Below are positions 38,325 to 61,700 of a stretch of DNA of 64,000 nucleotides, piece by piece (the first letter of the stretch is position 1; every line of letters begins with the position of its first letter). The notes beneath the pieces are model-generated. The model worked only from the letters and a program-made list of their open reading frames with translations, ran no database searches and was not told the DNA's origin. Origin of the DNA: an uncultured Bacteroidales bacterium (GTDB lineage Bacteria > Bacteroidota > Bacteroidia > Bacteroidales > FEN-979). Both the position numbers and the translations under genes were made by a program. The stretch covers positions 1 through 64,000 of the forward strand of contig CAIYJU010000076.1 of NCBI GenBank assembly GCA_903926565.1, written 5' to 3'.

Positions 38325-41300
38325 ATGAAAAAGCAAGTCTTACTCTCCTGTTTAATAGCATTAGTGATTTTTATTACGAATGGCGTGTATGCTCAGGTAG
38401 GTATTAATGCAGATGGGAGTCAGCCAGATCCTTCCGCCATGCTTGATGTAAAGTCAACAGTTAAAGGATTCCTGCCACCGCGCGTGGCATTGTCATCCAG
38501 TAACTTGGCGGCGCCCGTTGCTACGCCTGTCGCGGTTGGTTTGCTTGTTTATAATACAGTAATTGCAGGTGGGGCGGAAGATAAGGTTTTGCCGGGTTAT
38601 TACTTTTGGAGTGGCGTGAAATGGGTTGCTGTTACAACACCCCAGGGTGTCAATAAAGGTGATATGCTTTTCTGGAATGGGTGGTCCTGGGTGACCATTC
38701 CCCCGGGTGCTCACGGACAGCAACTCTCGTTTTGCAATGGGCAGCCCACCTGGGGAGGTTGTGAGGCACTTGTGTCAACTACTCCCTGTTCATCATGTAC
38801 CCAGAGCACGATTAACACTGGCGGGATTGTAATCGATGAAGGTGGTACGCCGGTAATTCAACGTGGTGTGTGCTGGAGTACGCATCAAAATCCGACCATT
38901 GAGGACGACACACTTGTTGAGGGCGATGGACCTGGTGCTTTTTCCAGCCAGATTACCGGGCTTAGTCCCAGTACAGTTTATTACGTCAGAGCTTATGCAA
39001 CCAATGAATCCAAAACCGGCTACGGCGAACAAATTGCTGACACAACAAAAGAATACTCCGGAGCCCCGGTCACTTCAATGCCGTTATTAACCATATGTCC
39101 GAATTCAACTGTATTGGCGCCGGTCAAAGTTTCCGGTTTTAACAACATCGGTTCAATGACATTGATGATCCATTATAATTCCACCGCACTTTCATACTCG
39201 CTTGCCACCAATACATCCGGTTTTCCGGGGCTGACATTCGATGGCACCGTTCCCGGTGAAATTACCATCACCGGCGCTGCAACGGCGGGTATTTCATATC
39301 CCGATAACTCTGTGCTTTTTACAATCGAATTCACTTATGCAGGAGGTGCAGCAGATCTGACATGGTTTGATAACGGGACATCCTGTCAGTATACTGACGG
39401 GAACCAGCTTGTGCTGAATGATATGCCGATACCTGATTTTTATCTCCCCGGTCATATTACGGAGAAATCAACAGTAGGTTCACCGATATTTGACATCGGG
39501 TCAACATCGTCACATTGCATGGGCATCGGGTCAGTTACCTATCATGCCACTGCTTCCAATTCCACTGCGATTATTTACAGCCTTGATCCAATCAGTGTTG
39601 CTGCAGAAAACAGCATCGATATCAATACGGGAACAGTAAGCTATTCGTCTTCCTGGTTTGGTACCTCTGTGATTACGGCCAGTGCCGAAGGATGCAATGG
39701 TCCAAAGACCTCCGTCCATACGGTGACAATTACTCCACAGGTACCCGTTTCTGTTACCATTGTTTCCTCAATTGATACAGTTTGTGCCGGAACCATGGTC
39801 ACATTTACCGCTACCATTATCAATGGAGGTCAGTTGCCCTTGTATCAGTGGAAATTGAATGGAGCCGATATCCCGGGCGCAACGAATCCCACATACAGCT
39901 ATATTCCTGCAGACGGTCAGTCCATTTCATGTAAAGGAACATCTGATATTCTTTGTACAACAGGAAACCCGGCACTTTCGAATTCAAAGCCCATCATCGT
40001 GCACCCAGTTCTTCCGGTAAGTGTGACCATTGCAGCATCTGCCAATCCGGTTTGTCCGGGAACAAACGTTGTCTTTACGGCAACACCCGTAAACGGAGGT
40101 TTGTCTCCTGCATATCAATGGAATATTAATGGCACGGATGTTCAGGGTGCAACAAATGCGACTTATTACAATGTACCTGCCCAGGGTGACCTGGTAAAAT
40201 GTGGCATGTTATCCATTGCGCCCTGCGCAACCGGGAACCCTGCAACATCGAATACCGTGACCATGGGCATTCTTCCCCAGAATCCGGTTGGCGTTACTGT
40301 TGTTGCATCAGAGAATCCTACCTGCGCGGGACAAAGTGTTGTTTTTACTGCAACTCCCGCAAACGGAGGGACTTTTCCCGCATACCAATGGCAGGTTAAT
40401 GGAAGTGATGTGCAGGGAGCGACCACTGCGACCTATAGCTATGCTCCTTTACAGGGTGATCTGATCACTTGCGTACTGACTTCCAGTGCTGCATGTGTTA
40501 CCGGCAATCCTGCAACATCAGGTGCAGTTTCCATGCAGGTTTCACCATCGAATCAGGTCTCTGTGACAATTACTGCGTCAGAGGATACAGTGTGTTCAGG
40601 CGAGAATGTAGTCTTTACTGCGATCCCGGTAAACGGAGGGACAGCACCTTTGTACCAATGGAAAGTGAATGGTTTCGACGTGCAGGGTGCAACAAATGCA
40701 ACATACAACTCTATTCCGTCTAGTGAGGAGATCGTAACGTGCCGGTTAACTTCAGATGTCTCCTGTGCTGCCGGCAGTCCTGCTGTATCCGAACCGATCA
40801 TAATAAAAGTTAACCCGCTATTGAATGCCAGTGTAGGTATATCCACTCCGGTAAATCCGGTCTGTGCAGGTAGCCTGGTCCCATTTTTGGCCATTCCTGT
40901 TAATGGAGGTAATGCACCGCTGTATCAATGGCAATTGAATGGAACTGACATAACCGGTGCTACCGATGCAACGTATTCTTTTACTGCAGTTAATTTTGCA
41001 GATATAGCCTGTAGATTAATCTCCGACGCATTATGTGCAACTGGAAACCCGGCCATCTCTGATGTAACTCATCTTGGGGTTAATCCATTGCTTCCTGTAA
41101 GTATTTTGGTCTCTCCATCAGCGAACCCAGTATGCCTGGGAACTTCTGTGACTTTTTCTTCGGCAATTACAAATGGCGGTACCAACCCTGCATATCAGTG
41201 GAAAGTAAACGGAAACGATGTTCCGGGTGCGACAAATGCCACTTATAGCTATGTGCCGGCTGCGAATGACGCTGTAAACTGTGTGCTCACTTCGGTTGCC

Positions 41301-43634
41301 CTTTGTGCATATGGAAACCCTGCTCCCTCGAATGTGGTAGAAATGGGAGTAACCGCCACTCTTATGGTTGGTTCAATCAGTGGTGACCAGGTGGTCTACC
41401 CGAACATGACCCCTGCTGAACTGGTTGGGATTCCCCCATCCAATGGAACGACTCCCACGTATCAGATGCAGCAATCATCTGACAATAGCGTTTTTACCGA
41501 CATTGAAGGCGCCACCACGCTCAATTACCAGCCTGGTATGCTCACGCAAACCACCTATTACAGGCAGATGCAAAATGCGACAGGGCCCTGCGGGGGACCA
41601 ATGCCTACCAATGTGGTAACCATCGCGGTTAACTCAGCATTGTCGGCCGGTGTAACGATCACTGCCAATCCATCGGCAACTGTATGTGGAGGAACAGAAG
41701 TGACCTATACTGCAACTCCGGAGAATGGCGGAACATCTCCTTTTTACCACTGGATGGTGAATGGTATGACGGCAGGTACAAACAGCCCGACCTTTTCATA
41801 CATTCCATTACAAGGTGATGCCGTTTCGTGCACGATGACATCGAACCTGCCTTATGTGATCAACAATCCTGCACCGTCGAATGTAATAGATATGACCGTG
41901 AATCCTGTTTTGACAGCAGGTTTGTCAATGACAATTGATCCTGCCGGACCAATCTGCGCAGGCACCCTGGTTTCCTTCACCGCGATACCGGTTAACGGCG
42001 GCACTTCCCCGGCCTATCAATGGATGATGAATGGAAGTCCCATCTTCGGTGCAACAAATTCATCCTACTCTTCTCCAACGCTTGGCAATGGAACGATGAT
42101 CTCTGTAATGATGACCTCGAATGCAGCGCCTTGTCTTGAAGGATCACCTGTTACCACACCCCAGGTTGCCATGGTGGTTAATCCTGTGATTCCTGTCAGC
42201 GTCACGATTGCAGATGTTCCAACCGGAGCTGTTTGTGAAGGAACGTCAGTCACTTTCACGGCTACCCCGGTAAATGGTGGAACGGCCCCCGCTTATCAGT
42301 GGAAGGATGGCGTTAATGCAATTTCCGGTGCAACCGGAGCAACTTATACCACAATAATGGGAGCCAGTGCTTCAATCAGTGTGGAGATGGTTTCAAATGA
42401 AGGGCCGTGTCTGAGCAGTTCACCAGCTACTTCAAATGTAATTGAAAAAACGGTCAATCCAATGGTGCCTGCAACCATCACCATTTCAGAATCGGTAAAT
42501 AATGTTTGTTCCGGAACGGGTGTTACGTTTACTGCTGCTATTGAGAATGGCGGTACAAACCCATTATATCAATGGAAACTGAATGGTACTAATATCACAG
42601 GAGCCACCGGTTCCACTTACCTTTATGCTCCTTTAAATGGGGCCATGTTATCATGTGTTCTTACTTCAACTGCAGCCTGTGTCACCGGAAGTCCTGCTAC
42701 TTCGGACGTGGTGACTATGACTGTGATCCCGAAAGTTTACGTGAAAACCACAATTGTGTCCACTACCTATGCCATGATGCCCGGAACACAGGTGACTTTG
42801 ACTGCCGCTGTTGAGAATGGCGGGACTGCCCCTGTTTACCAATGGAAAGTAAACAATATTGTGGTAGGCACCAACAGTTCAACCCACTCCTATACTCCTT
42901 TGAATTTGGATAAGGTAACCTGCACGGTCACCTCAAACAGCACTGCTGCCTGCCTTTCAAACAATCCGGCCAAATCGACCACGCTTTCAATGATTGTCTA
43001 TGTGGCAGGATCTGCCTGTACAGCAGCACCGACTGTGTTATATGGCGGAAAAACATATAATACCGTTCAGATTGGCACACAGTGCTGGATGCGTGAGAAC
43101 ATGAACATTGGAACACAAGTCCCGATAACCACCACGCAAACCAACAATGCAGTAATCGAGAAGTATTGTTATAACGATTCAACCTACGATTGTGATGTTT
43201 ACGGAGGTTTGTACCAGTGGAATGAGATGATGCAATACTCAGCAACGCCTGGTGCCCAGGGGATCTGCCCAACCGGCTGGCATGTACCGACTGAAGCGGA
43301 AGCTATAACATTGGCGACCTATGTTGGAGGGGCTCCGGCAGCTGGTGGAAAGCTGAAAGAGGCCGGAACAGGTCATTTCAGGAGCCCGAACACCGGTGCA
43401 ACAAACGAATTTGGGTTCACCATGCTCGCGACCGGTTACAGTTACGTTCCTGCTACCCTCCCCTCCATCCCTTACTACAGCAATATGTTCCAGAATGGCT
43501 ACTTCCATACTTCAACTGATTATGCTCTTCCGAACGGACCCGTATTTCGCAGCGGTTCACTCTCAAATGCCACGCTTGGAACCTTTTTTAATGCAAAAAC
43601 AACCGGGCATCCGGTACGTTGTCTTAAAAACTAA
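38325..43634 (+). CDS. Giant secreted FISUMP-domain protein with a cohesin-like domain and 12 Ig-like repeats
   Basis: 1769 aa: signal peptide; cohesin-like block (VKVSGFNNIGSMTLMIHYNSTALSYS...WFDNGTSCQYTD); ~90-aa repeats (VSVTIxxSxNPVCxGTxVTFTATPVNGGxxPxYQWKxNGxDxxGATNATY); C-terminal FISUMP domain. Confidence 0.88.
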   Translation: MKKQVLLSCLIALVIFITNGVYAQVGINADGSQPDPSAMLDVKSTVKGFLPPRVALSSSNLAAPVATPVAVGLLVYNTVIAGGAEDKVLPGYYFWSGVKWVAVTTPQGVNKGDMLFWNGWSWVTIPPGAHGQQLSFCNGQPTWGGCEALVSTTPCSSCTQSTINTGGIVIDEGGTPVIQRGVCWSTHQNPTIEDDTLVEGDGPGAFSSQITGLSPSTVYYVRAYATNESKTGYGEQIADTTKEYSGAPVTSMPLLTICPNSTVLAPVKVSGFNNIGSMTLMIHYNSTALSYSLATNTSGFPGLTFDGTVPGEITITGAATAGISYPDNSVLFTIEFTYAGGAADLTWFDNGTSCQYTDGNQLVLNDMPIPDFYLPGHITEKSTVGSPIFDIGSTSSHCMGIGSVTYHATASNSTAIIYSLDPISVAAENSIDINTGTVSYSSSWFGTSVITASAEGCNGPKTSVHTVTITPQVPVSVTIVSSIDTVCAGTMVTFTATIINGGQLPLYQWKLNGADIPGATNPTYSYIPADGQSISCKGTSDILCTTGNPALSNSKPIIVHPVLPVSVTIAASANPVCPGTNVVFTATPVNGGLSPAYQWNINGTDVQGATNATYYNVPAQGDLVKCGMLSIAPCATGNPATSNTVTMGILPQNPVGVTVVASENPTCAGQSVVFTATPANGGTFPAYQWQVNGSDVQGATTATYSYAPLQGDLITCVLTSSAACVTGNPATSGAVSMQVSPSNQVSVTITASEDTVCSGENVVFTAIPVNGGTAPLYQWKVNGFDVQGATNATYNSIPSSEEIVTCRLTSDVSCAAGSPAVSEPIIIKVNPLLNASVGISTPVNPVCAGSLVPFLAIPVNGGNAPLYQWQLNGTDITGATDATYSFTAVNFADIACRLISDALCATGNPAISDVTHLGVNPLLPVSILVSPSANPVCLGTSVTFSSAITNGGTNPAYQWKVNGNDVPGATNATYSYVPAANDAVNCVLTSVALCAYGNPAPSNVVEMGVTATLMVGSISGDQVVYPNMTPAELVGIPPSNGTTPTYQMQQSSDNSVFTDIEGATTLNYQPGMLTQTTYYRQMQNATGPCGGPMPTNVVTIAVNSALSAGVTITANPSATVCGGTEVTYTATPENGGTSPFYHWMVNGMTAGTNSPTFSYIPLQGDAVSCTMTSNLPYVINNPAPSNVIDMTVNPVLTAGLSMTIDPAGPICAGTLVSFTAIPVNGGTSPAYQWMMNGSPIFGATNSSYSSPTLGNGTMISVMMTSNAAPCLEGSPVTTPQVAMVVNPVIPVSVTIADVPTGAVCEGTSVTFTATPVNGGTAPAYQWKDGVNAISGATGATYTTIMGASASISVEMVSNEGPCLSSSPATSNVIEKTVNPMVPATITISESVNNVCSGTGVTFTAAIENGGTNPLYQWKLNGTNITGATGSTYLYAPLNGAMLSCVLTSTAACVTGSPATSDVVTMTVIPKVYVKTTIVSTTYAMMPGTQVTLTAAVENGGTAPVYQWKVNNIVVGTNSSTHSYTPLNLDKVTCTVTSNSTAACLSNNPAKSTTLSMIVYVAGSACTAAPTVLYGGKTYNTVQIGTQCWMRENMNIGTQVPITTTQTNNAVIEKYCYNDSTYDCDVYGGLYQWNEMMQYSATPGAQGICPTGWHVPTEAEAITLATYVGGAPAAGGKLKEAGTGHFRSPNTGATNEFGFTMLATGYSYVPATLPSIPYYSNMFQNGYFHTSTDYALPNGPVFRSGSLSNATLGTFFNAKTTGHPVRCLKN
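39747..43010 (+). repeat. 12 tandem ~90-aa (mostly exactly 270-bp) Ig-like repeat units
   Basis: Unit starts at 39747, 40017, 40287, 40557, 40827, 41097, 41367 (divergent), 41646, 41916, 42195, 42471, 42741. Confidence 0.88.
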
Positions 43635-45159: not shown

Positions 45160-48100
45160 ATGAAAAGGAAATTATCTATTTTAGTACTGCTGCTTTTTGC
45201 AACACTGATCTCTCAAGCGGCCACATGGCATGTTGATCCTTTGGGAACTGATGACTTATCGCATGGTACCGGCACCGGCATCAATGCATTCAAAACGATT
45301 CAATATGCAATCGATTTTGCCAGCGTGGTGAACGGAGATGTCATAAACGTGGCTTCCGGCACCTATGTTGAGTCAAATATTCTGGTCCATAAAAGCTTAA
45401 CTATCCGCGGTGTTGGTGCAACCCGGGATGCGGTTGTGATTGTTCCGACAGGTACAGATGCAAACGTTGACAATGCTTTCGGCAGTGGTGCCCTCAACGG
45501 GTTCATCATCAAGGCACAATCGGTCACGATCAGGAAGCTGACAATAAACGGAAATCCTGCCGCTATCCCCGGAATCTTCAATTTCCGTGCGGGTATTGTC
45601 ACCCTGGATGCCAGCCAGCCTGGCGGTGGTGTATGGAACAACCTACATGTGGACAATGTTGTCATCAAAAATACCTGGAGAAGGGGTATTTCCGTTTTCC
45701 CGAGGACGGTTGCAGGAACTGTAATTGAAAGATCGAGCATAGAAAACGTTGCCTTCAACCAGGGCATGTACCTTGCCGGACACAGCCTTGTTTTGAATAA
45801 TACGGTAAAACATTGCTTCCAGGGAATTGTTCTGAATCCTGATGCAACAACACCCACCGGTCTTTTTAAAATAAATGGCAACACTGTTACCGAGATCGGA
45901 AACTTTCCGGGTTGCTTCTCATATCCGAACGGTCAGCCACGTGCTATTCAATTCGATCCGGTTGACCCTACATTCAGGGCAATTGAGATTAAAAATAACG
46001 TAGTAAACGACAATGGATCTGTTGGCCTTATTGGCACTGTTGGCATCTATACCCGCAGAGCCAATTCAATTTCAACCGTGGAAAGCAATACCATCACCCT
46101 TTCTTCAGGTGCATCTTTGGCGTCAGGAACACAATCGGTCGGATTGCTTTTGGGTTGGTCTTATGCAAGAGCATTTACTGCGAAATTAAACTATGTGACC
46201 ACAACCGCTTCCGGAATAGGTATCATGCTGGTTGATGTTGGAACTGCTGACATGCCGATGGTCCTTGAAGGCAACGTGCTGAACAGTTCAGGCAGCACAC
46301 ATGGCGCAACCGGTGACGGAACAGGTATCTATATTGCAAACCAATACCTGTTCAATGCAACAGATAAAGCAGAAGCTTTTGTTAAGATACAGAACTACAA
46401 CAGAATAAGAGGCTTTGCAAGAGGAATCGATGTTGAAAAAATCGTCACCTCGACATTGCCACTGACAGTCATCGTGCATAACAACTTAATATTTGGAAAT
46501 ACTCTCGGATTTGATGCGTCAACGCTTACTGCACCGGTAGATGCCACGAATAACTGGTGGGGAGATTGCACAGGCCCGAATCATGCAACCAACCCAGGCG
46601 GGCTTGGTAATGCTGTTACAAATAATGTCTCCTTCATGCCATGGTGGTGTAACCCGGGAATGACTACAACCGGACCGTTTCTCACTCCAGGTATGTTGAT
46701 TAGAAATACAAGTACAGGTGCAGAATATACATCTGCCCAGCTTGCAGATGCATTCACTGCTGCTGCAAGCGGTCAAACACTTTACGTTGCTCCGGGTTTG
46801 GTAAATGCTGCTTCCTATAATTATCCGGGAAAAACAGTTTATATGGTTGGTACTGGTATACCAGGACAATCCATCATTGACGGACCATTCACGGTCGATG
46901 CCGGAAATTTATTCGTTCTCAACGGAATGAGATTCATCAACTCGGTAAATAACCCTACCATCCTTGTCAATGGTGGGATCCTTACCCTCCGTAACAGCAT
47001 TGTTCACGGAACTACAGGTGGCGTGCAGGCTTGCCTTGAAGTCACAGGTGGCTCTGTGGATGCAGGAACCCTGGTGGATAAAGGAAATAATCAATTTCTG
47101 GCAGCCTTGTTGGGTTCAGCGATTAACAATGTTCCCGAAATCGGGCTGAAGGCAATTGGCAATGATTGGGGGAGCCTGACCGGACCTACTGTTGCCTCCA
47201 ATCCCGCGGGTACTGGCGGTGCAATTATCGGCACTGGTCTTGATTCTGTATACTATGCGCCATTTATTGGTGGTCCCGTTACAACGATTGCTTCTGTTTT
47301 TGCCTGCGCGGGCGTCACAAGCGTTGATATTCCGGTTACTGCAACCAATTTCAACAATATAGGTAGCCTTGCGCTCACCTTCGGATTTACACCGGCCCAG
47401 TTGACAAATCCTCAGATCGTTTACACGAATCCTGCTTTTAGCCCATGGGGATCCTTTACTGTAACCACAGATCTCGGATTACTTGCAGCGGGAACCTTTA
47501 AAGTTTCTGGTTTTGCATTGCTTCCGGCTGACGGAGTCACCCTCGCAGGCGGATCAATCCTGTTCACCCTGAGATTTGATATCCTTCCGAATGCAGGAAC
47601 TAACAGCACTGCTGCGGTATTCTTTAATGAAAACCCACAGGGAACCGACTGTGAGTATGCCACCCCGGCTCCCTATATTACATTGGGAGATATGCCATAC
47701 AACGACTATTATATTAATGGTGGCGTTACTTTACACCAACTCCAGAGAATCAGTGGTGCGTTCACCTATTATAATGCAGCCAATGTTATCCTGACTGATG
47801 AAGATATTACTGTGAAATTATACAAATCAAGTGATGTCACACACTCAAACCTGCTTGGTACATGCATTACAAATGCATCCGGGTATTATGAATTCGAAGA
47901 TTACTGTTCGGGTGAAACGTATGACCTTGTAGCTACTTCAACCCACACGACAGACGGCAGTGTCAACACGACCGATGCTGCTCAGGTGAATTTCTGGCCG
48001 ATTTCACCAACTTCCATTGAGAAAGTCAGGTTCTATGCAGGTGATGTTGGAACAGTTACTTTGCCGCGCGATTGGTTTCTTTCCGCAACCGATGCCCAGA

Positions 48101-49026
48101 GAATTCAGCAGAATTTTGTCAATGGTGTTGCTTTTGACAGACCCTGGACTTTCTGGAAAGCAGGACAGTTTATTGCAGCCAATCCGGTTGTCCCTGCTGC
48201 AGCATTTCCAAGTGTGAGCCTGATTTCTGGTAGCGATGTTACAGCAAACATGTATGGCTTATGCACAGGTGACTTTAACCGCAGTTTCAATCCGTTATTA
48301 AAGAAATCAGCCAGCAAAAATCTGACCCTTATTTATGGCAGATCGATGCAGGTAAACATCAACCAGGAATTTGACCTGCCTATTCATGTGGTTCATGCCT
48401 GCAGCGTGGGAGCTGTCTCCCTTATCATTAATTTCCCATCTGATCTGGTTGAGGTGAAGGATGTCCGTATAAACAGCGTTCACGGTGAACTGGACTGGGC
48501 TGTTAATGGAAACGAATTGAGAATTGGCTGGAATTCAATTAACGCTGCCGACCTTGCAGCATTCGATGACCTCCTTACCCTCAGGCTCTTAACCAAAGAG
48601 ACTTTTGTAAAAGGCTCTTCAGTAAAACTAACGCTTGCAGCAGATCTGCTGAATGAACTTGCGAACGCCAGCTATGATGTTATTGGCGATGCAATTCTAA
48701 GCGTTGATGTTCTTGAAGCAACACCCAACGGAATCGGTGATCTGACCACAAATGGTACAATCGCTCTTTCTAACTATCCTAATCCATTTACAGCCAGGAC
48801 GACTATTTCTTATTCTCTTCCATTTAATGGGGATGTCACAATTGAAATCCGTAACTCATTCGGCGTAACAGTGGATATTCCTGTAAATGAAAAGCAGACA
48901 GCAGGCAACCATTCATTGGTTTTTGATGGATCCAGCCTTGCAGCCGGTGTTTATACTGCAACGATCAAATTGAATCAAAACTCAAATGTTGCTTCTGGTA
49001 CGATCAAACTTGTAATAACTAAGTAA
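45160..49026 (+). CDS. Secreted right-handed beta-helix protein with cohesin-like domain, dockerin-like segment and T9SS sorting domain
   Basis: 1288 aa: beta-helix N-terminal half (FKTIQYAIDFASVVNGDVINVASGTY); cohesin-like VDIPVTATNFNNIGSLALTFGF; DGSVNTTDAAQVNFW...LSATDAQRIQQNFV...CTGDFNRSF; C-terminal LSNYPNPFTARTTISYSLP. Confidence 0.85.
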   Translation: MKRKLSILVLLLFATLISQAATWHVDPLGTDDLSHGTGTGINAFKTIQYAIDFASVVNGDVINVASGTYVESNILVHKSLTIRGVGATRDAVVIVPTGTDANVDNAFGSGALNGFIIKAQSVTIRKLTINGNPAAIPGIFNFRAGIVTLDASQPGGGVWNNLHVDNVVIKNTWRRGISVFPRTVAGTVIERSSIENVAFNQGMYLAGHSLVLNNTVKHCFQGIVLNPDATTPTGLFKINGNTVTEIGNFPGCFSYPNGQPRAIQFDPVDPTFRAIEIKNNVVNDNGSVGLIGTVGIYTRRANSISTVESNTITLSSGASLASGTQSVGLLLGWSYARAFTAKLNYVTTTASGIGIMLVDVGTADMPMVLEGNVLNSSGSTHGATGDGTGIYIANQYLFNATDKAEAFVKIQNYNRIRGFARGIDVEKIVTSTLPLTVIVHNNLIFGNTLGFDASTLTAPVDATNNWWGDCTGPNHATNPGGLGNAVTNNVSFMPWWCNPGMTTTGPFLTPGMLIRNTSTGAEYTSAQLADAFTAAASGQTLYVAPGLVNAASYNYPGKTVYMVGTGIPGQSIIDGPFTVDAGNLFVLNGMRFINSVNNPTILVNGGILTLRNSIVHGTTGGVQACLEVTGGSVDAGTLVDKGNNQFLAALLGSAINNVPEIGLKAIGNDWGSLTGPTVASNPAGTGGAIIGTGLDSVYYAPFIGGPVTTIASVFACAGVTSVDIPVTATNFNNIGSLALTFGFTPAQLTNPQIVYTNPAFSPWGSFTVTTDLGLLAAGTFKVSGFALLPADGVTLAGGSILFTLRFDILPNAGTNSTAAVFFNENPQGTDCEYATPAPYITLGDMPYNDYYINGGVTLHQLQRISGAFTYYNAANVILTDEDITVKLYKSSDVTHSNLLGTCITNASGYYEFEDYCSGETYDLVATSTHTTDGSVNTTDAAQVNFWPISPTSIEKVRFYAGDVGTVTLPRDWFLSATDAQRIQQNFVNGVAFDRPWTFWKAGQFIAANPVVPAAAFPSVSLISGSDVTANMYGLCTGDFNRSFNPLLKKSASKNLTLIYGRSMQVNINQEFDLPIHVVHACSVGAVSLIINFPSDLVEVKDVRINSVHGELDWAVNGNELRIGWNSINAADLAAFDDLLTLRLLTKETFVKGSSVKLTLAADLLNELANASYDVIGDAILSVDVLEATPNGIGDLTTNGTIALSNYPNPFTARTTISYSLPFNGDVTIEIRNSFGVTVDIPVNEKQTAGNHSLVFDGSSLAAGVYTATIKLNQNSNVASGTIKLVITK

Positions 49027-49088
49027 TCGTCTATATGTTGAAGGGGAGTGCGGAAGTACTCCCCTTTTTTTATGTAAGTTTATTGAGG

Positions 49089-50351
49089 ATGAACAGCATC
49101 ATGCAATTGAAAAAGGTACCCTGTATTTTTGTTTTACTTATTGCATTTTATTCAACAAGGCTCTTTGGTGCTGATGCTCCCATCACTTATGCACCGGTGC
49201 TCACTGTCATGGCTACCGGCCCGGTGGCCGTTCCTGTTACAGTAACTGGCTTTGCAGGTGTCGGATCAATGACCCTCTCCCTGGAATATGATCCATCCAT
49301 CATGTCTTATGTCAGCTTTATTAAAAACCCTGCATTCGGATCATCTTTCCTGGTCGGGAATAACCCGGGAGTTGGTGGCAAAATGATCATACTTATCCAA
49401 TGGTTTGGCACCCCGGTAACACTGGCCAGCGGGTCAACCATCTGTACCCTGAATTTTAATTATACTGCATCCAACAGCAATGGCACACTGCTTAAGTGGT
49501 TCGATAACGGCCCCTCCTGTCAGTATACTGATGCCAATACGGCCGTACTTAATGATATACCCGGAACTTATTTTTACCACAACGGGTCCGTTGCCCCGCC
49601 CCTGGTTGCGGTGTCGATTTCTCCTTCAGCAAATCCTGTATGTTCAGGTTCAACAGTTAATTTTGCGGCGACACCTGTAAACGGAGGAATAACACCTTCT
49701 TATCAATGGAAAATTAATGGAGTCAATGCAGGTACCAACAATCAGTATTTTAGCTTTATACCGGCAAACAACGATGTAGTTTCTTGTGTCCTGACCTCAA
49801 GTGCCTCATTTGTTTCCGGTAATCCGGCTGTCTCCAACCTGGTAGTCATGACAACCATTCCTTTGGTGGTTGCCAATTTCTCAGCAGATAATTTAACTCC
49901 GGCTAAAAATGATACAGTTTCTTTTACAGATATAAGCACCGGCGGAGTAACCTCATGGACCTGGAGTTTTGACAAACCCGGTTTCCTGTTCGTGGATGGA
50001 ACCACTAACCATTCACAAAACCCTCATGTTAAATTTTCGGATGGAGGGTATTGGTCAGTTACCCTTGAGACGAATAACAGCTGTTTCAGTCATTCATTGG
50101 TGAAATCCGGATATATCCTTGTCGGCCTTCCCGGCCTTTGGCTGGGAACCGCCTCCCCGGAATGGAGCAATGGTTCGAATTGGGATAATACGCTTGTTCC
50201 AGGCAGTGTTACCAGCGTCGTAATTCCTTCTTCTGCTGCAAACTGGCCGGTTTTTAACGGGGACCTGACCATTGGCATCCAATGCAGTCGCCTTACCCTC
50301 AACGGTACAACAAGCAGGATGACCATTACAGGAAATCTGATCATTCCATAA
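49089..50351 (+). CDS. Secreted protein: cohesin-like domain, one Ig-like repeat and a PKD domain
   Basis: VPVTVTGFAGVGSMTLSLEYD; VAVSISPSANPVCSGSTVNFAATPVNGG; PKD SFTDISTGGVTSWTWSFDKPG; no T9SS C-terminal domain visible. Confidence 0.82.
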   Translation: MNSIMQLKKVPCIFVLLIAFYSTRLFGADAPITYAPVLTVMATGPVAVPVTVTGFAGVGSMTLSLEYDPSIMSYVSFIKNPAFGSSFLVGNNPGVGGKMIILIQWFGTPVTLASGSTICTLNFNYTASNSNGTLLKWFDNGPSCQYTDANTAVLNDIPGTYFYHNGSVAPPLVAVSISPSANPVCSGSTVNFAATPVNGGITPSYQWKINGVNAGTNNQYFSFIPANNDVVSCVLTSSASFVSGNPAVSNLVVMTTIPLVVANFSADNLTPAKNDTVSFTDISTGGVTSWTWSFDKPGFLFVDGTTNHSQNPHVKFSDGGYWSVTLETNNSCFSHSLVKSGYILVGLPGLWLGTASPEWSNGSNWDNTLVPGSVTSVVIPSSAANWPVFNGDLTIGIQCSRLTLNGTTSRMTITGNLIIP

Positions 50352-50360
50352 TTATTGCTC

Positions 50361-52367
50361 ATGAAAAGGAACCAATTCCGGGTATTTCTCCGTACACTTT
50401 TCATGATTATTGTCTGCCTCTTTCTGTTGTCAGGGTTTTCTGTCACAGGGCAAAATGCGCCTGTCACCACACTGGCCACTGTCGGAAATGTTGTTCCCGG
50501 TCAGGTGGAGGTGCCAATTATGGTCACAGGTTTCAATAACATTGGCGCAATTTCCTTATCTTTTGATTATCAATATGCAGGCCTGCATTTCGTGCAGGGT
50601 GTTCCCAATGCCATGCTTGATGGGTTTGCCATTGGTGACCATGATCTCGGAAACGGCAAGCATCGTATCACCATGGGCTGGTTTGGTTCCGGGACATCAC
50701 TTGGCAACGGTGAAGTAATCATGATGGTTACGTTTACATTTCTGGGAGGGATCACCGCACTGGAATTTTACGACAACGGGCCCTCATGCGAGTATGCTGA
50801 TGCGAACTACAATGTTTTGAATGATCTTCCGCAAAGCACCTATTATATCGATGGTCTGGTATGCGGGAATATTCCTAATCCGGGTCTCATCACTGGTGAT
50901 CCTGCCGTATGCCGCGGACAAACAGGGGTAGGGTATGGGGTTGCTCCGGTGCCCAATGCAACAAGTTACCAATGGGTGCTGCCTGCCGGTGCAGCAATCG
51001 TAAGTGGCATTAACACGAATGCAATATCGGTTGATTTTTCCCCGACAGCCGTTTCCGGCAATATCACCGTTCATGGTGTGAATGGATGCGGAAACGGTTC
51101 TCCATCACAGCTTGCCGTTACAGTAAGCCCATTACCTGTTGCAAACGCCGGGACGGATGTTACAATTCCTTATGGTACAAGTACTACGCTCCATGCTGCT
51201 TCCGGTGGCACTGGTTCATTTAGTTACCATTGGTCGCCCGAATCGTTGCTTGTAAATCCGAACCTGCAGAATCCGCAAACTGTGAACCTGACAGTCACCT
51301 CTGTTTTTACACTGGCAGTAACCAACCTGGCAACGCTTTGCAATGATTCTGACGAGGTTGTGGTTACCATCTCAGGAGGGCCTCTCAATGCAAATCCGGT
51401 TTCGATTCCTGGCGCCATCTGCAGAGGCACATCAGCCCAGTTATTTGCAAATGCAGGAGGAGGCTCTGGAAATTATACATACACATGGAGTTGTACTCCG
51501 CCGGGAAGCCCTCCATGGAGTTCGAGCCAGCCAAGTCCGATGGTCTCCCCGGATTCATCAAAAGTATATCAGTTGTCACTTTTCGACGGTTTCAATACAA
51601 TCGTTCGTTCAACTTCGCTGACAGTTTACCAGTTGCCTTCAGCAACAATTTCCGGAGGAGATACCCTCTGCGGGACTGGCAATTCCACTGTTCTCACTGT
51701 TGGACTGACCGGTACGCCGCCGTGGACATTTTATTATTCAAATGGGATCAGCACATGGCTTGTATCCGCTCAATACACAACCCCGTATTCAATTGTTGCA
51801 ACCGAAGCAGGAAATTATACCATTTTAGCCATGACAGACGACAGATGTACTGGTACGACTGCCGGTTCTGCCATTGTCGGAGTTTTTCCGATACCTCCTG
51901 TACCAGTCATATCAGTTAACGGGACGGAGTTATTCTCCTCGGGCTGTTGCGGCAACCAGTGGTATAAAAACGGTATCATGATCCCGGGAGCGACTTCACA
52001 GGTTTACGAACCCCTGGTAACCGCGCATTATTTTGACATCGTTACTGTAAATGGGTGTAAATCTGATACATCAAATGAGATTTACTATTTCATGACAGGG
52101 GTTGGTAAATATGCCAAATCTGGTTTAAAGGTGGAACCGATCCCGGCAAGGGACTACCTTCATGTAAAATTATCAGGAATTGTACAACAGGTCTCGCAGA
52201 TAGATATATACTCCATCACCGGTCGACTTGAAGAAAGATTGTCATACCATCCACAGGTTTCCCCGGATGAACTTCTTGTCAACATTCAGCATCTTTCACC
52301 CGGGATGTACCTTCTTTCCGTTATTTCCGACACAGGAAAGACAGTATTGAAATTTATTGTACAATAA
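50361..52367 (+). CDS. Secreted protein with cohesin-like domain, PKD/Ig-like domains and T9SS sorting domain
   Basis: VEVPIMVTGFNNIGAISLSFDYQ...FYDNGPSCEYADANYNVLNDLPQSTYYIDG; C-terminal KVEPIPARDYLHVKLSG...GMYLLSVISDTGKTVLKFIVQ. Confidence 0.82.
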   Translation: MKRNQFRVFLRTLFMIIVCLFLLSGFSVTGQNAPVTTLATVGNVVPGQVEVPIMVTGFNNIGAISLSFDYQYAGLHFVQGVPNAMLDGFAIGDHDLGNGKHRITMGWFGSGTSLGNGEVIMMVTFTFLGGITALEFYDNGPSCEYADANYNVLNDLPQSTYYIDGLVCGNIPNPGLITGDPAVCRGQTGVGYGVAPVPNATSYQWVLPAGAAIVSGINTNAISVDFSPTAVSGNITVHGVNGCGNGSPSQLAVTVSPLPVANAGTDVTIPYGTSTTLHAASGGTGSFSYHWSPESLLVNPNLQNPQTVNLTVTSVFTLAVTNLATLCNDSDEVVVTISGGPLNANPVSIPGAICRGTSAQLFANAGGGSGNYTYTWSCTPPGSPPWSSSQPSPMVSPDSSKVYQLSLFDGFNTIVRSTSLTVYQLPSATISGGDTLCGTGNSTVLTVGLTGTPPWTFYYSNGISTWLVSAQYTTPYSIVATEAGNYTILAMTDDRCTGTTAGSAIVGVFPIPPVPVISVNGTELFSSGCCGNQWYKNGIMIPGATSQVYEPLVTAHYFDIVTVNGCKSDTSNEIYYFMTGVGKYAKSGLKVEPIPARDYLHVKLSGIVQQVSQIDIYSITGRLEERLSYHPQVSPDELLVNIQHLSPGMYLLSVISDTGKTVLKFIVQ

Positions 52368-52732: not shown

Positions 52733-55700
52733 ATGCAACATATTTTATACAAACTGTACAAGACTGCGGGAGCGCTGATGTACGCATCATCAAGAATTTT
52801 ATCGATCATTGCCCTCGGTTTCTTTCTGGGTAACGGCAATTCCAATGCACAAACTACATTGGTTGGGTCAGAAAAGTTAAACCCGGGACAAAGCCGGTCG
52901 TTTGTTCAACCTGAAAAGGAGTTGGAACAGCGGGTCAGGGAAACACTCAAGACGAATGGAGAGACACTCAGGTTCATGGAGAACCTCGGGCAGATACCGA
53001 ATGCTGCCGTTCTCTATTATCTTGAAAGTAAAAATGGTTCGGTTTACATTGAGAAGAACAGGATCCGTTTTGTAGCTGTTGATGAGATTCTTGTCCCACA
53101 GTCTGCTGCATTGGATGAAACTGCTGATGCTTCATCCCGTAAAATGAAAAGTGAGATTAAGGGCACACATACCTTCACGCTTTACCTGGATGGAGCGAAT
53201 CCCGGTTCAATGTTGCAGCTGGGAGAATCATTCACGACAAAATATAACTATTTTCAGAGCGAAGACTCAAAAGGATGGTTTAAAGGAGTAAAAGCTGCAA
53301 AAGATTTGACAATAAAAGATATATATCAGGGTGTTGATCTGAGGTTATACAGCAACCAGGATGGTTCCCTTGAATTCGACTGGATTATGAAACCAGGGGC
53401 GGATTTCGGCCAGGTAAAAATGCATTTTGAAGGACAGGATGACCTTGATGTTGACAACCTTGGAAATCTGAAGGTAGGATTGCGTTTTACAGATATGAAC
53501 TTCAACATCCCTGAGTCCTACCAGGTTACAGAAAAAGGTAAAGTGTCGGTTACCCTTGCGTTTAATAAACTGAACGGCAATACGATCAATTTTGTTTCAC
53601 AATCAATAATTGACGCAAGATATCCGCTGGTTATTGACCCGGTGTTAAACTGGGGAACTTTTATGGATGGCAACCTTTCCAATTTCGACCAGTACCTCTT
53701 CGCCATCCAGATCAATCCCGCTGACGGAAACGTTTATTGTGCAGGAAGTTCAAACCAGAATATTCCAACAGGGGCGGCACCATACACTGCCAACGGTTAT
53801 CTGAACAGTGTAGCCGGATTTTCCAATAACTCCAACGGTGTACACGTTGCATGTCTTTATAGGGTGAATAGTTCTGGTACACAGCTTGTTGACCTTACGT
53901 TGTTCGGACCCGCCTCAGTAAGCGGAGTGACGAATGGATTATCTGCCTATGCGTTAAGCCTCTCGCCGACAAGGGTTTTTGTTGGCGGATTCACTGAGGT
54001 AAACATCCCTGCTGCTGGAACCCAGTTTGATAATACACGCAATGGTACAGATGGTTTTGTTGCAGTTTTCAGCCGCGACCTGGGAACCCTTGTTTATTCA
54101 ACATACCTGGGAAGTACAGGAAATGAGACCAGGGGTGTCACCTCCATCCGGGCGCTAGGAGATGACTCATTTGCAGTTGGACTCACTGCTGTGGCGGCTT
54201 TACCTGCAAGTTACATCAGCGCTGGCGTTGCAGATAACACCTTTGCAGGAAGTGAAATGTACATCGCGAAATTCAGCACACTGAATACACTGGCCTGGGG
54301 AACCTATGTTGGTGGAACCGGCAACGACGTGTTTAATGATATCGAAGTTCTTGCAGATGGCAGAGTTGCCTTTGCCGGATATGGAAATGCTGCGATTACG
54401 GAAGTAAACAGCGCAGCTGCCGCTTCTGCAGGAACCGACAATGATGGCATCATCGGAGTTTTGAACAGTTCAGGTACTGCTTTTAACTATCTTGATAAAA
54501 TTGGGGGTGACGCAGCAGACCAGATTCTCGATGTAGAAGTTGTAGGGAATACCTTGTTCTGGACAGGATCGGCAACAAGAGGGTCATCTGTGCCCAATGA
54601 ATTTCCTACGACTTCGGGCTCTTATGATACATCCTCCAATGGAGGAACTGATGTTGTTGTCGGATCAGTCAGTACTGCCGGAGGTGCCGGCAGTTATAAG
54701 GCTACTTTTTACGGCGGTGGCGGCAATGACATCGGAAGCTGCTTAAGGCTGGTAACCCAAACCGGGTGCGGAGGAGTATCAAACTCCTTTTTACTGGTTT
54801 TTGGAACATCCTATTCATCCGGAGCTCTGCTGCCAACACTTAACCTTAACAATGAAGCGTTCTATAATGCTACAAACAGGGGCGGAGCTGATATTTTCTT
54901 TGCAGGTTTCAGTGAAGATATGGCATCTTTAACCTATGCAACCCTGATTGGCGGAACAGGCGACGATTATCTTGGTGAAACAGGATCGCCACGCGGAGCC
55001 AACCACTTGTTTGTGAATGGTGCAAATATCTATTGCGGAACAACAACACACAGTGCAACACATTTCCCGACCATTGTTGCCGGGGGATTTGATCTTTCCA
55101 AATCAAACAGCACGAACGACTCACATATCCTTTTTGCAATTCAGTTTGCATCCATACTCACTTCTGATTATGGAGATGCACCTGCAAGTTATGGTTCACC
55201 GTCGCACACCCTCAGTTGTTCAACAATCAGGATCGGTGCCCTTCTCGACAGTGAACAGGCTCCAATCCCCACCACCCAGGCCAATGGCGATGACCTGAAC
55301 AATACTGATGATGAAGACGGGATCAGTACGCTTCCCATATTTTCTACCGGTGGACCGCAAAATATCAGTGTGACCGTCAACAACCTTTTGAATTCCACTG
55401 GGAGTTCTGCCAATCTGTATGGATGGATCGATCTCAACAGTGACGGACAGTTTTCAGGCAATGAATTCACTTCAGTTACCGTGGCGAATGGTTTTACCGG
55501 TTCAAAGACGCTTACATGGAGTGGTGTCACAGTGAGTGGCTCTCAAACAGCGCATTTTCTCAGAATCCGGCTGACCACCAACGTGCTGAACGACAATGCA
55601 GGTACAGCTTCAGTTGATGAGCGTTCCACCGCCGCTGCCTCAGACGGGGAAGTTGAAGATTACCTTACCGTTCTTGTACCTGCCGTTCCAACGTGGACCT

Positions 55701-58700
55701 TGGCCAAAACAAGCACTACAAACCCGAACCAGTACAGTGCAGTCGGCAATATTCTTACCTATTCCATTGTAATTCAAAATACAGGAAATGTGTCGATCAG
55801 CGGTGTAACAGTCACTGACCCCGGAGCAAACCCGGGAAGCATCACCTATCTTTCAGGAGATGTAAACAGCAATAATATAATGGAGGTAACGGAAACCTGG
55901 ACCTACAGTGCAGCACATACCGTTACACAGGCCAACATGGATGCAGGTTTCTATACCAATACGGCGACAGTTACGGGAACTCCCACAGGCGGGACCCTCA
56001 GCCCGGCCACAGATAATGAAACAATTCCATCTACCGGTGCAAACCCGGCCATATCACTGGCCAAAACAGGTACGCCACACTTTGGTCCTGACGGCATCCC
56101 ACAGGCAGGGGAAACAATAACTTATGCCTTTGTGGTGACCAATACCGGCAACTTAACACTGACGAATGTTACGATCATTGACCCGAACGCGGCGATTTCC
56201 GGAGGGCCGATTGCATCATTGACACCCGGAGCATCAAACAGCAGTACCTTCACCGGGTTACATACGCTGACCCAGGCTGAAATCAATTCCGGTACCTTTA
56301 CCAATGTGGCTACTGTTTCCGGCACACCCCCATTTGGAGGGGCAGTGACAGGTACGGATGGTGATACTCAGCCCCTGCCAGCCTCTTCATCCATTTCAAT
56401 GACCAAGACCGGGACGCTTCATACAGATGTAGTTGCTCCGGCTGGAATTGCCAACCCGGGTGATCAGATTACCTATGTTTTTACGGTAACCAACACCGGA
56501 AATACTACCCTGACCAATATTACAATCAGTGATCCGCAGGCAACAATTTCCGGTGGCCCGGTTGCCACGCTTGCGCCGGGTGCTTCCAACAGCAGCACTT
56601 TCACGGCAACCTATACCCTTACCCAGGCCAATGTCAATGCTGGTACTTTTACAAATACCGCGACTGCCTCCGGTTTACCTCCCAGCGGTCCTGCAGTGAC
56701 CGGAGCAGATGGAGACACCCAGGCATTAACTGCATTTCCCGGTATAGATCTTGTCAAGAACGGGACGCCGAATTTCGGTGCAGACGGACTTGCCCAGGCC
56801 GGTGAAACAATCACCTATTCTTTCACCATTACCAATACCGGCAATGTCACCCTGACCAATGTAACACTCAGCGACCCCATTGTGACCATTATTGGCGGGC
56901 CGATTGCCTCACTTGCCCCCGGAGCCGTCAACAATTCGACATTTACTGCCACATATTTCCTTACGCAGGCAGATATCAACGCCGGTTCCTTTACCAATAC
57001 CGCGATTGCTACGGGGAAAGATCCTCAAAATCACGATATCACAGGAGCTGACAGTCATACCCAACCCTTAAATCAGTCTGTCAGCATTGACCTTAACAAA
57101 ACAGGCAACCCGAATTTCGGGCCCGACGGAATTCCCCAGGCTGGCGAAACAATTACTTACACATTTACCATCACCAACAACAGCAACGTAACGCTGACCA
57201 ATGTCACGCTGAGTGATCTGCAGGTTAACATTACCGGAGGCCCGATCGCCTCAATGGCACCTGGTGCATCCGACAACACAACCTTCAGTGCAACATATAC
57301 ATTGACCCAGGCCAACATCGATGCAGGGGTGTTTGTAAACACGGCTACAGTCAGTGCAAAGGATCCGGGTAATAACGATGTTACCCATACCGACAGTCAT
57401 ACACAGCCACTGCCTGCTGCCTCTTCCATCTCAATGGCAAAGACCGGAACATTGAACATGAATGTTGTTGCACCGAATGGTGTGCCCAACCCTGGTGACC
57501 AGATAACATACTCTTTCACCGTAACCAACACAGGAAACACCACCCTCACCAATGTGACCATTTCCGACCCTCAGGTCAGTGTTACAGGTGGCCCCATTGC
57601 AATACTTGCCCCGGGTGCCACCAACAGCAGCACGTTCACTGCAATACACATATTGTCCCAGGCAGACATTGATGCAGGAACGTATACAAATACTGCAACG
57701 GCAACGGGTACACCACCGTCTGGTCCTGTTGTAACAGGAACCGATGATGATACACGAATCTTGCCTGCTTCTTCCTCTGTTTCGTTGACCAAGACAGGAA
57801 CACTGCACATGGATGTTGTTGCACCGAATGGTGTTGCCAATGCCGGTGACCAGGTTACCTACACATTCACGGTTACCAACACCGGGAATACTACCCTGAC
57901 CAACCTGACTGTAACAGATCCGCTTGCGGTTATCTCAGGTGGCCCGATTGCCTCACTGGCGCCGGGTGCAACAAACAGCAGTACCTTCACCGGTACGCAC
58001 ACACTGACCCAGGCAGAGATCGATGCCGGTACATTTACCAACCTGGCAACAGCTTCAGGGACACCTCCATCGGGCCCCGCTATTACAGGAACTGATGATG
58101 ACACACAGACCATTCCCGCTGTTTCATCACTTGCACTGACCAAAACAGGTACTGTTCATGATGATGTAATAGCTCCCAATGGCATTGCCAATGCCGGCGA
58201 CCAGATCACTTATGCTTTTGCTGTCACCAACACAGGCAACACAACGCTCACAAATATTACGATCACTGACCTGCAGGTAACACTGTCCGGCGGACCGATC
58301 ACCTCTCTTGCTCCCGGTGCAACAGACAACAGCACCTTTACCGCCACTCATGTTCTAACCCAGGCTGATATTGATGCCGGTACTTATTCAAATACTGCAA
58401 CCGCATCAGGTACACCACCATCTGGTCCGCCAGTAACCGGAACAGATGACGATACCCGTCTGCTCCCTTCGGCTTCGTCCATATCAATGACAAAGACTGG
58501 CACACTTCACACGGACGTTGTTGCACCAAATGGAGTTGCGAATGCCGGTGACCAGATTACCTATGCATTCACGGTTACGAATACAGGGAATACAACCCTG
58601 ACCAATGTGACAATCGCGGATCCCCAGGCTGTAATGTCAGGAGGTCCGATTGCTTCACTGGCTCCTGGAGCATCGAACAGCACAACCTTCACCGGTATTC

Positions 58701-61700
58701 ACACCCTGACCCAGTCCGAGATCAATGCAGGCACATTCACCAACATAGCCTCAGTTTCAGGGACTCCACCATCCGGCCCGGAAGTGACAGGTACAGATGA
58801 TGACACCCAGGCCCTGCCGGCTGCATCTTCCATTTCGATGACCAAAACCGGAACACTTCATGTTGATGTTGTTGCTCCCAATGGCATTGCCAACGCCGGT
58901 GATCAGATCACTTATGCTTTCACGGTGACCAATACCGGCAATACCACGCTTACGGATGTTATCATAACCGATCCAAATGCCGTTGTGTCCGGAAGCCCCA
59001 TCGCATCCCTGGCCCCGGGCGCAACCAACAGCAGTGCATTCACGGCAATTTACACACTGACCCAGGCAGATATTGATGCCGGCACCTTTACCAATGTGGC
59101 CACAGTTGAAGGTACACCTCCAACCGGCCCGGATGTAACCGGAACGGATGATGATACACAGTCATTGCCGAAAACAGCAGGTATTGACCTCGTTAAGATG
59201 GGAACCCCTCATTTCGGCCCCGATGGCCTTGCCCAGGCCGGAGAGACCATTACGTATGCCTTTACCATCACCAACACCGGCAATGTGACCCTAACTAATA
59301 TCATACTCAACGACCCTGTCGTTACAGTTATCGGTGGCCCGATTGCATCACTGGCCCCCGGAGCAGTTGACAACAGCACCTTTACCGCAACTTACACGTT
59401 GACCCAGGCAGATATCAATGCCGGCTTTTTCACAAATACAGCCATTGTTACCGGAAAAGATCCGCAAAATCAGGATGTAATTGGAACAGACAGTCATACG
59501 CAGCCACTTGATCAGGCTGTCAGCATCGATCTGGATAAAACCGGGGTTCCTGATTTTGGAGCTGATGGCATTCCCCAGGCAGGCGAAACCGTTTCCTATA
59601 CTTTCACGGTGACCAATAACAGCAATGTCACGCTGACCAATATAACGATCAACGATCCCCAGGTAGCTGTGTCCGGCGGGCCAATTGCATCTCTGGCTCC
59701 CGGTTTATCAGACAATACGACCTTCACTGCGGTATATCTCCTGACCCAGGCGAATATTGATGCAGGTGTTTTTGTCAACACGGCCACTGTAACAGGTAAA
59801 GACCCGAATAGCAACGACGTAACTCATACCGACAGCCACTCACAACCATTGCAGACAGTATCGTCAATCTCACTGACCAAAACAGGTACTGTTCATGATG
59901 ATGTAATAGCTCCCAATGGCATTGCCAATGCCGGCGACCAGATCACCTATGCTTTTGCTGTCACCAACACAGGCAACACAACACTCACGAATGTGACCAT
60001 AACCGACCTTCTGGCCGGTGTGACCGGTGGACCGATTGCTTCGCTGGCTCCAGGTGCAACTGACAACAGCACCTTCACTGCAACACACATTTTGACACAG
60101 GCTGATATTGATGCAGGGTCCTATACAAACTCTGCAACCGCTTCAGGTACACCACCATCTGGTCCGCCAGTTAGCGGAACGGATGACGACACGCGTCCGT
60201 TGCCTTCAGCTTCATCCATTTCGATGACAAAGACAGGGACACTCCACACAGATGTTGTTGCACCTGCAAGTGTTCCCAATGCAGGTGATCAGATCACCTA
60301 TGTCTTCACGGTGACAAATACAGGCAATACAACACTCACAAATGTTGGCATCACTGATACCCAGGTAGCGGTTTCCGGGAACCTCATTGCACTTTTAGCC
60401 CCGGGAGAGAGCAACAACAGTAGTTTTACGGCAATCTATACCCTCACGCAGGCGGATATTGATGCAGGTACCTTTACCAATGTCGCTTATGCCAATGGAA
60501 CTCCGCCATCAGGTCCTGATGTGTCCGGAACAGATGACGATACCCAGACCTTGCAGGCAGTCTCTTCCATTTCCATGACCAAAACAGGAACACTGCATGT
60601 TGATGTTGTGGCTCCCAATGGCATTGCCAACGCCGGCGATCAGATCACTTATGCTTTCACGGTGACCAATACCGGCAATACTACTCTCACGGATATCACC
60701 ATTACCGACCTTCAGGCCGGAATGTCCGGTGGGCCGATTTTATCACTTGCACCCGGTGCAACGAACAGCAGTACATTCACCGCAATTTATACACTGACCC
60801 AGGCCGACATCAACGCTGGTACCTTTACCAACCTGGCCACAGTTTCGGGTACGCCGCCAAGCGGCCCGGCTGTCACAGGGACGGATGATGACACACAGAC
60901 ATTGGTAAAATCATCAGGTATTGACCTTGTAAAGATCGGAACTCCCAATTTTGGAGTCGATGGTCTTGCCCAGGCCGGAGAGACCATCACCTATTCCTTT
61001 ACTGTCACCAATACCGGGAATGTTACCCTGACCAATATTACGCTCATTGACCCTGTTGTCACAGTGATTGGTGGCCCGATTGCTTCCCTGGCCCCCGGCG
61101 CAGCAGACAACAGCACCTTTACCGCGACCTATACAGTAACCCAGGGTGATATCAATGCAGGCTCGTTCACCAATACAGCCACGGTAACCGGAAAAGATCC
61201 GCAAAACCAGGATGTAATCGGCACAGACAGTCATACACAGCCATTGGATCAGTCTGTCAGCATCGATCTGGATAAAACCGGGGTTCCTGATTTTGGCGCT
61301 GATGGCATTCCCCAGGCAGGCGAAACCGTTTCCTATACTTTCACGGTGACCAATAACAGCAATGTCACGTTGACCAATATAACGATCAACGATCCCCAGG
61401 TAGCTGTGTCCGGCGGGCCAATTGCATCTCTGGCTCCCGGTTTATCAGACAATACGACTTTCACTGCAGTTTATACCCTGACCCAGGCGAATATTGATGC
61501 AGGCGCATTTGTCAACACGGCCACTGTTACAGGGAAAGACCCCAATAACAATGACGTAACTCATACCGACAGCCACTCACAACCATTGCCAGCTGCTTCG
61601 TCTATATCAATGACCAAGACCGGAACTGTTCATAGCGATGTTGTGATGCCTGATGGTATTGTCAATGCCGGTGACCAGATTAGTTATACCTTTTCGGTCA

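Follow-up and report, generated by a model that had tools for sequence, protein, structure and literature searches.

A divergent, putatively circularly permuted dockerin in a T9SS-tailed cohesin protein of Bacteroidota

Introduction

Dockerins are the calcium-dependent plugs of cellulosomes, and cohesins are their sockets. Type I dockerins (PF00404; 1ohz, 4dh2) are built in the contiguous order loop 1, helix, linker, loop 2, helix, and their calcium ligands occupy loop positions 1, 3, 5, 9 and 12 (PMC5748583). In clostridial scaffoldins (CipA, 2b59, 3kcp; 4wi0, 4u3s), a beta-sandwich, the X module, lies directly ahead of a type II dockerin. Cohesin–dockerin systems with a C-terminal surface domain have also been described in Cloacimonadota (PMC8542988). 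As for Bacteroidetes, their genomes have been said to be without cellulosomal components (PMC5831590), and dockerins have been reported in Bacteroidetes genome bins (PMC6071333).

The window analyzed here is a stretch of 64,000 nucleotides from an uncultured Bacteroidales bacterium (contig CAIYJU010000076.1, positions 1 to 64,000). One of its proteins carries what we consider, with a probability of about 70%, to be a divergent, circularly permuted dockerin which forms, together with a CnaB-like companion, an X-dockerin-like pair in a T9SS-exported surface adaptor that would bind a cohesin encoded next to it.

Domain Architecture of the Window Protein

The C-terminal part of the protein comprises, in this order, a first cohesin-like domain, a CnaB-like domain, the dockerin-like module, a second cohesin-like domain and a T9SS tail (Table 1). 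The N-terminal part has a beta-helix-like appearance, and the product gave no significant match to any beta-helix family. The initial annotation had placed a dockerin-like segment after a cohesin-like block, as is indeed the case, and the residues it quoted lie where it put them: TTDGSVNTTDA from residue 930 (nucleotide 47947), RDWFLSATDA from residue 970 (48067), GSDVTANMYG from residue 1024 (48229) and TGDFNRSFNP from residue 1036 (48265). Its proposal that cohesin and dockerin-like modules share one polypeptide also holds, with two cohesins instead of one. The CnaB-like domain before the module, the second cohesin after it and the T9SS tail had gone unmentioned.

Table 1. Features of the window protein, candidate partner cohesins and free-standing relatives.
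Feature	Position (nt)	Strand	Residues	Basis or remark
Cohesin-like domain in ORF 38325-43634	39057-39461	+		Candidate partner
Carrier ORF, 1288 aa	45160-49026	+		ORF list
Putative beta-helix-like region		+	N-terminal ~700 aa	Judged by eye
Cohesin-like domain 1	47269-47730	+		Profile built from the window's four such domains
CnaB/SdrD_B-like domain	47749-47946	+	864-929	SdrD_B in 46/47 cassette members, PDB profile matches, AF2 strands
Putatively permuted dockerin-like module	47947-48294	+	930-1045	Conservation, Dockerin_1 matches, PDB profile, rotation test
Repeat 1: second half of putative calcium loop 1 and helix 1, GSVNTTDAAQVNFW	47956-47997	+	933-946 (N936, D939)	Helix at model residues 80-88; D12 in 124/124 modules
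Repeat 2: loop 2 and helix 3	48040-48126	+	961-989	Helix at model residues 119-131; conservation
Displaced first half of putative calcium loop 1, GDFNRSFNP	48268-48294	+	1037-1045 (D1038, N1040, S1042)	Conservation; rotation test
Cohesin-like domain 2	about 48307-48729	+	about 1050-1190	AF2 and Foldseek; profile match to 2xdh
T9SS type A sorting tail	48775-48990	+	1206-1277	PF18962, TIGR04183
Adjacent gene: cohesin (49170-49595) and PKD, no T9SS tail	49035-50351	+		Candidate partner
Next gene: cohesin (50454-50861), PKD domains, T9SS tail	50355-52367	+		Candidate partner
Free-standing C-terminal modules, no T9SS tail	L187:4108-6822; L183:7516-10146; L190:9064-11100; L194:4011-6572			Putatively permuted dockerins on, in this order, lysyl oxidase, alpha-amylase, endonuclease I and FG-GAP plus cohesin

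The T9SS tail scores above the cut-offs of both families (30.9 bits for PF18962, cut-off 27; 26.5 for TIGR04183, cut-off 23). A domain related to cohesin-like domain 1, located in the adjacent gene product, matches PF00963. Cohesin-like domain 2 belongs to the same family: in a Foldseek search of its predicted structure it fell among cohesins with a probability of 1.00, the cassette profile matched the cohesin 2xdh (E 2.5e-9), and 16 of 47 aligned cassettes match PF00963.

The CnaB/SdrD_B-like domain is best described as an X-module-like companion of the dockerin. As in the clostridial X module–type II dockerin pairs, a beta-sandwich directly precedes the dockerin and the family profile aligns over both parts; in addition, proteins with four cohesins which end in such a pair recall CipA. 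Here, however, the sandwich is of the CnaB/SdrD_B type, the dockerin appears permuted, the setting is that of a Gram-negative T9SS, and no carbohydrate-binding module has been seen.

Dockerin Homology

The window protein alone gave no dockerin match in Pfam, NCBIfam or PDB sequence searches. In its natural order it misses the PF00404 cut-off, while relatives pass it with scores of up to 43.7 bits, reached by a free-standing member. Relatives of the region spanning residues 862-1045 occur in 21 of the 61 genomes searched, the window's own counted in; a tblastn search of plasmids and a search of viral contigs returned none. When 47 cassettes were aligned, 24 of them matched Dockerin_1 singly (best E 8.7e-8), 46 SdrD_B and 16 Cohesin. 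The cassette profile further matched solved structures in the PDB, namely the dockerins 4dh2 and 1ohz and the X module–dockerin chains 4wi0, 4u3s and 2b59, some of these weakly. The resemblance to dockerins first pointed out in the initial annotation thus reflects homology. Within 24 sequences sharing 25-72% identity with the window, the N, T, D and A of GSVNTTDA, the D of GDV, the A of the second TDA and the G, D, N and S of GDFNRS are invariant.

A Putative Calcium Loop Divided Between Both Ends of the Module

In the relatives, a full-length Dockerin_1 match typically starts at profile position 8-10 and so lacks the first half of calcium loop 1. The GDxNxS motif has the sequence of this missing half (D1-x-N3-x-S5) and sits tens of residues past helix 3, where the module ends. 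The two halves read GSVNTTDA (residues 933-940) and GDFNRS (residues 1037-1042) in the window copy. Free-standing modules terminate a few residues beyond GDVNxS, and the half-loop has been kept at the end in the seven distant matches inspected across the phylum.

Rotation of the module was assessed by joining the C-terminal piece in silico to the module front and rescoring with Dockerin_1, shuffled or reversed pieces serving as controls. Scores rose from 34.8 to 44.7, from 30.2 to 42.9 and from 25.1 to 37.7 (27.9 with the reversed piece for the last one). The window sequence went from no match to 17.8 bits (reversed control 12.6), which is under the cut-off of 22.9. In eight of ten further modules, the rotated version scored 9.6 bits or more above the shuffled control, a missing match being set to zero. 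Overall, most of the 14 modules gained about 10-15 bits, and no such gain was obtained with shuffled or reversed pieces. In rotated modules that score well, matches are gapless or nearly so and start at profile position 1-2.

Among 124 non-redundant modules, the composite loop 1 shows D1 in 124, N3 in 117, S5 in 116, N9 in 90 and D12 in 124 of them; the figures for loop 2 are 121 for D1, 79 for N3 and 122 for D12. The composite loop of the window copy reads D, N, S, N, D, that is, all five ligand types, while its loop 2 is degenerate: it bears an insertion, and of the ligands only D1 and D12 (D962 and D978) are left. The calcium loop had initially been called partly degenerate. This description fits loop 2 but not loop 1, which looks permuted rather than degenerate because all ligands are present once the two halves are joined.

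A circular permutation with the calcium loop completed by both module ends is the simplest reading of these sequences, and it is also what appears to have kept the window protein from matching any dockerin family in Pfam. The clasp which holds head and tail together in a clostridial dockerin (PMC4728124) makes such a permutation plausible. Calcium loop 1 would then be formed jointly by the initial GxVNxTD and the terminal GDxNxS, closing the module with its two loop–helix repeats head to tail.

The module shares with type I dockerins the two loop–helix repeats, the D-x-N-x-S...N..D loop pattern, three helices according to the predicted model and candidate partner cohesins in the same genome. 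It differs by the first half of loop 1 being found at the opposite module end and by 40-60 residues inserted past helix 3 and, in the window copy, by a degenerate loop 2 and a natural order that goes unscored. Since the contiguous order is broken by the C-terminal location of the first half of loop 1 and the score stays under the profile cut-off, the window copy is kept out of the canonical type I dockerins.

Distribution and Genomic Context

Relatives fall into two classes. The CnaB–dockerin–cohesin–T9SS cassette stands at a near-constant distance from the C-terminus, with about 227-250 residues following the module in complete copies, on proteins of widely differing lengths (up to about 6200 residues). 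In the second class, which has neither cohesin 2 nor T9SS tail, the module is at the extreme C-terminus. Its carriers include a lysyl oxidase, an alpha-amylase, an endonuclease I and a cohesin-bearing FG-GAP protein. Cellulosomes unite dockerin-bearing enzymes for plant cell walls with a carbohydrate-binding scaffold; in the few cargo proteins scanned here, neither a cellulase nor a carbohydrate-binding module was seen. Four-cohesin proteins of ~720 residues likewise end in a free-standing module.

Matches to the module are found in 19 of 19 genomes of the genus, in 15 of 17 genomes of another family and in 34 of 396 sampled Bacteroidota, with up to 26 copies in one 2-Mb genome. A cohesin gene is located directly downstream, on the same strand, in 36 of the 55 cassette genes that have enough flanking sequence; in the window, this position is taken by 49035-50351. 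Such gene order lends contextual support to the assembly with neighbouring cohesin proteins that the initial annotation had put forward. Proteins with the module seem to constitute a large and apparently undescribed family which is secreted by Bacteroidota and whose genes usually lie beside those of cohesins. In another Bacteroidia family, whose genomes measure 1-3 Mb and have up to 26 copies, free-standing dockerin genes form tandem pairs or triplets (L183, L184, L185, L186).

A locus conserved in the genus combines the gene of a large cassette protein with those of at least one single-cohesin protein of 340-390 residues with a T9SS tail and of a four-cohesin protein, a set which resembles an anchor and its scaffoldin. 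This locus was seen at L069, L199, L200, L201, L202 and L066, and most of the ~720-residue four-cohesin proteins there have a C-terminal, putatively permuted dockerin. The Cloacimonadota cellulosome-like proteins are similar in that enzymes bear dockerins and a cohesin scaffoldin has a C-terminal surface-attachment domain; they differ by their ordinary InterPro dockerin domains and by belonging to another phylum, and permutation is not described for them (PMC8542988).

Proposed Function and Competing Readings

The picture that we consider most likely is that of an adaptor. The T9SS exports cargo, and a C-terminal tail fixes this cargo at the surface. From its C-terminal cassette, the window protein would be exported by this route and held at the outer surface. 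The partner of its dockerin would be a cohesin carried by another protein, an adjacent gene product being the most plausible candidate, and its own cohesins would take up other dockerins.

The structure predicted for this cassette bears on the strongest alternative. AlphaFold2, run on residues 858-1192 with an alignment of 24 sequences, returned a CnaB–dockerin–cohesin 2 model with a pLDDT of 91.3 and a pTM of 0.88 in which the linker is poorly predicted. Consistent with a dockerin, it shows helices spanning model residues 80-88, 98-104 and 119-131. Folded alone, the dockerin module gave a pLDDT of 46 and no fold. The Foldseek matches listed for the model are cohesins and pilins, so that the dockerin fold itself is without confirmation by structure search. 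The high pTM, obtained despite the poor linker, suggests that the three domains adopt a fixed arrangement, and the model is thereby also compatible with a dockerin packed against cohesin 2 of its own chain. The permuted dockerin would then help to build a rigid stem ahead of the T9SS tail and recruit no other proteins, a reading consistent with the presence of a following cohesin 2 in 82 of 95 copies. Nevertheless, free-standing modules without cohesin 2 occur on enzymes and on four-cohesin proteins, the cassette shows linkage to cohesin-only genes, and the mutual information shared by dockerin and cohesin 2 does not rise above background, subfamily signals being dominant (90 sequences, effective number about 57). 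We therefore regard such a stem as unlikely, while granting it some weight.

The window copy could also be a decayed dockerin, which has lost its binding and serves as a spacer. An insertion interrupts its loop 2, as it does in its two close orthologues, and N3 and S5 are missing there. Yet the dockerin region is 71-76% identical to these two orthologues and the composite loop 1 is fully conserved, which makes decay quite improbable. Slightly less credible still is a module that has not been permuted at all, but is a truncated dockerin of one full and one half repeat, GDxNxS being a boundary motif in its own right or a metal site of its own. The two modules that showed zero gain upon rotation (L183 and L066) agree with this, and loop closure in the permutation reading is deduced from sequence. 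In contrast, the other modules gain gaplessly and in register, D1 and D12 are jointly invariant, and the motif is retained at the extreme C-terminus of free-standing modules, all of which argues for a permuted dockerin. Finally, a chance likeness to EF-hand loops within an unrelated fold, to which the lack of any dockerin match for the window protein alone might point, was rejected as highly implausible, since homologues with the same cassette reach 43.7 bits for Dockerin_1 and the family profile matches solved dockerins.

Implications

If a calcium loop is truly split over both dockerin ends, this topology is new to a well-studied interaction family, and profile searches would under-detect modules of this kind. 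Our literature search, which left most subscription journals outside and is thus no proof of absence, retrieved nothing relevant on permuted dockerins. The putatively permuted X-dockerins may also offer a new binding pair for protein engineering.

As the family is frequent in Bacteroidota and linked to cohesin genes, the phylum may own T9SS-coupled cohesin–dockerin surface assemblies. A more speculative extension, which we hold to be improbable at present, is that such assemblies of cohesins and circularly permuted X-dockerins are phylum-wide and that, in them, partners devoid of their own T9SS tail, such as free-standing dockerin enzymes and cohesin-only proteins, are retained by T9SS-tagged adaptors or even brought across the outer membrane by them.

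Canonical-Order Dockerins and Other Features of the Locus

Canonical-order dockerins coexist with the putatively permuted ones in the same genome. A close counterpart of the window protein there (L070:5591-11638) has a beta-helix, a dockerin, a cohesin and a T9SS tail in identical order, but its dockerin is canonical (profile positions 2-56) and it has no CnaB match. In this genome, canonical-order dockerins are also located at the extreme C-terminus of an M14 zinc carboxypeptidase (L071:3204-6833) and of a protein with four cohesins (L067).

In the window itself, the product of the adjacent gene (49035-50351) has a C-terminal domain that is common to several relatives and ends in GNLIIP or similar at the stop codon. 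Further downstream, an ORF still open at the window end (52733-64000) encodes more than 3756 residues with many near-identical repeats of ~120 residues, which are DUF11-like by appearance.
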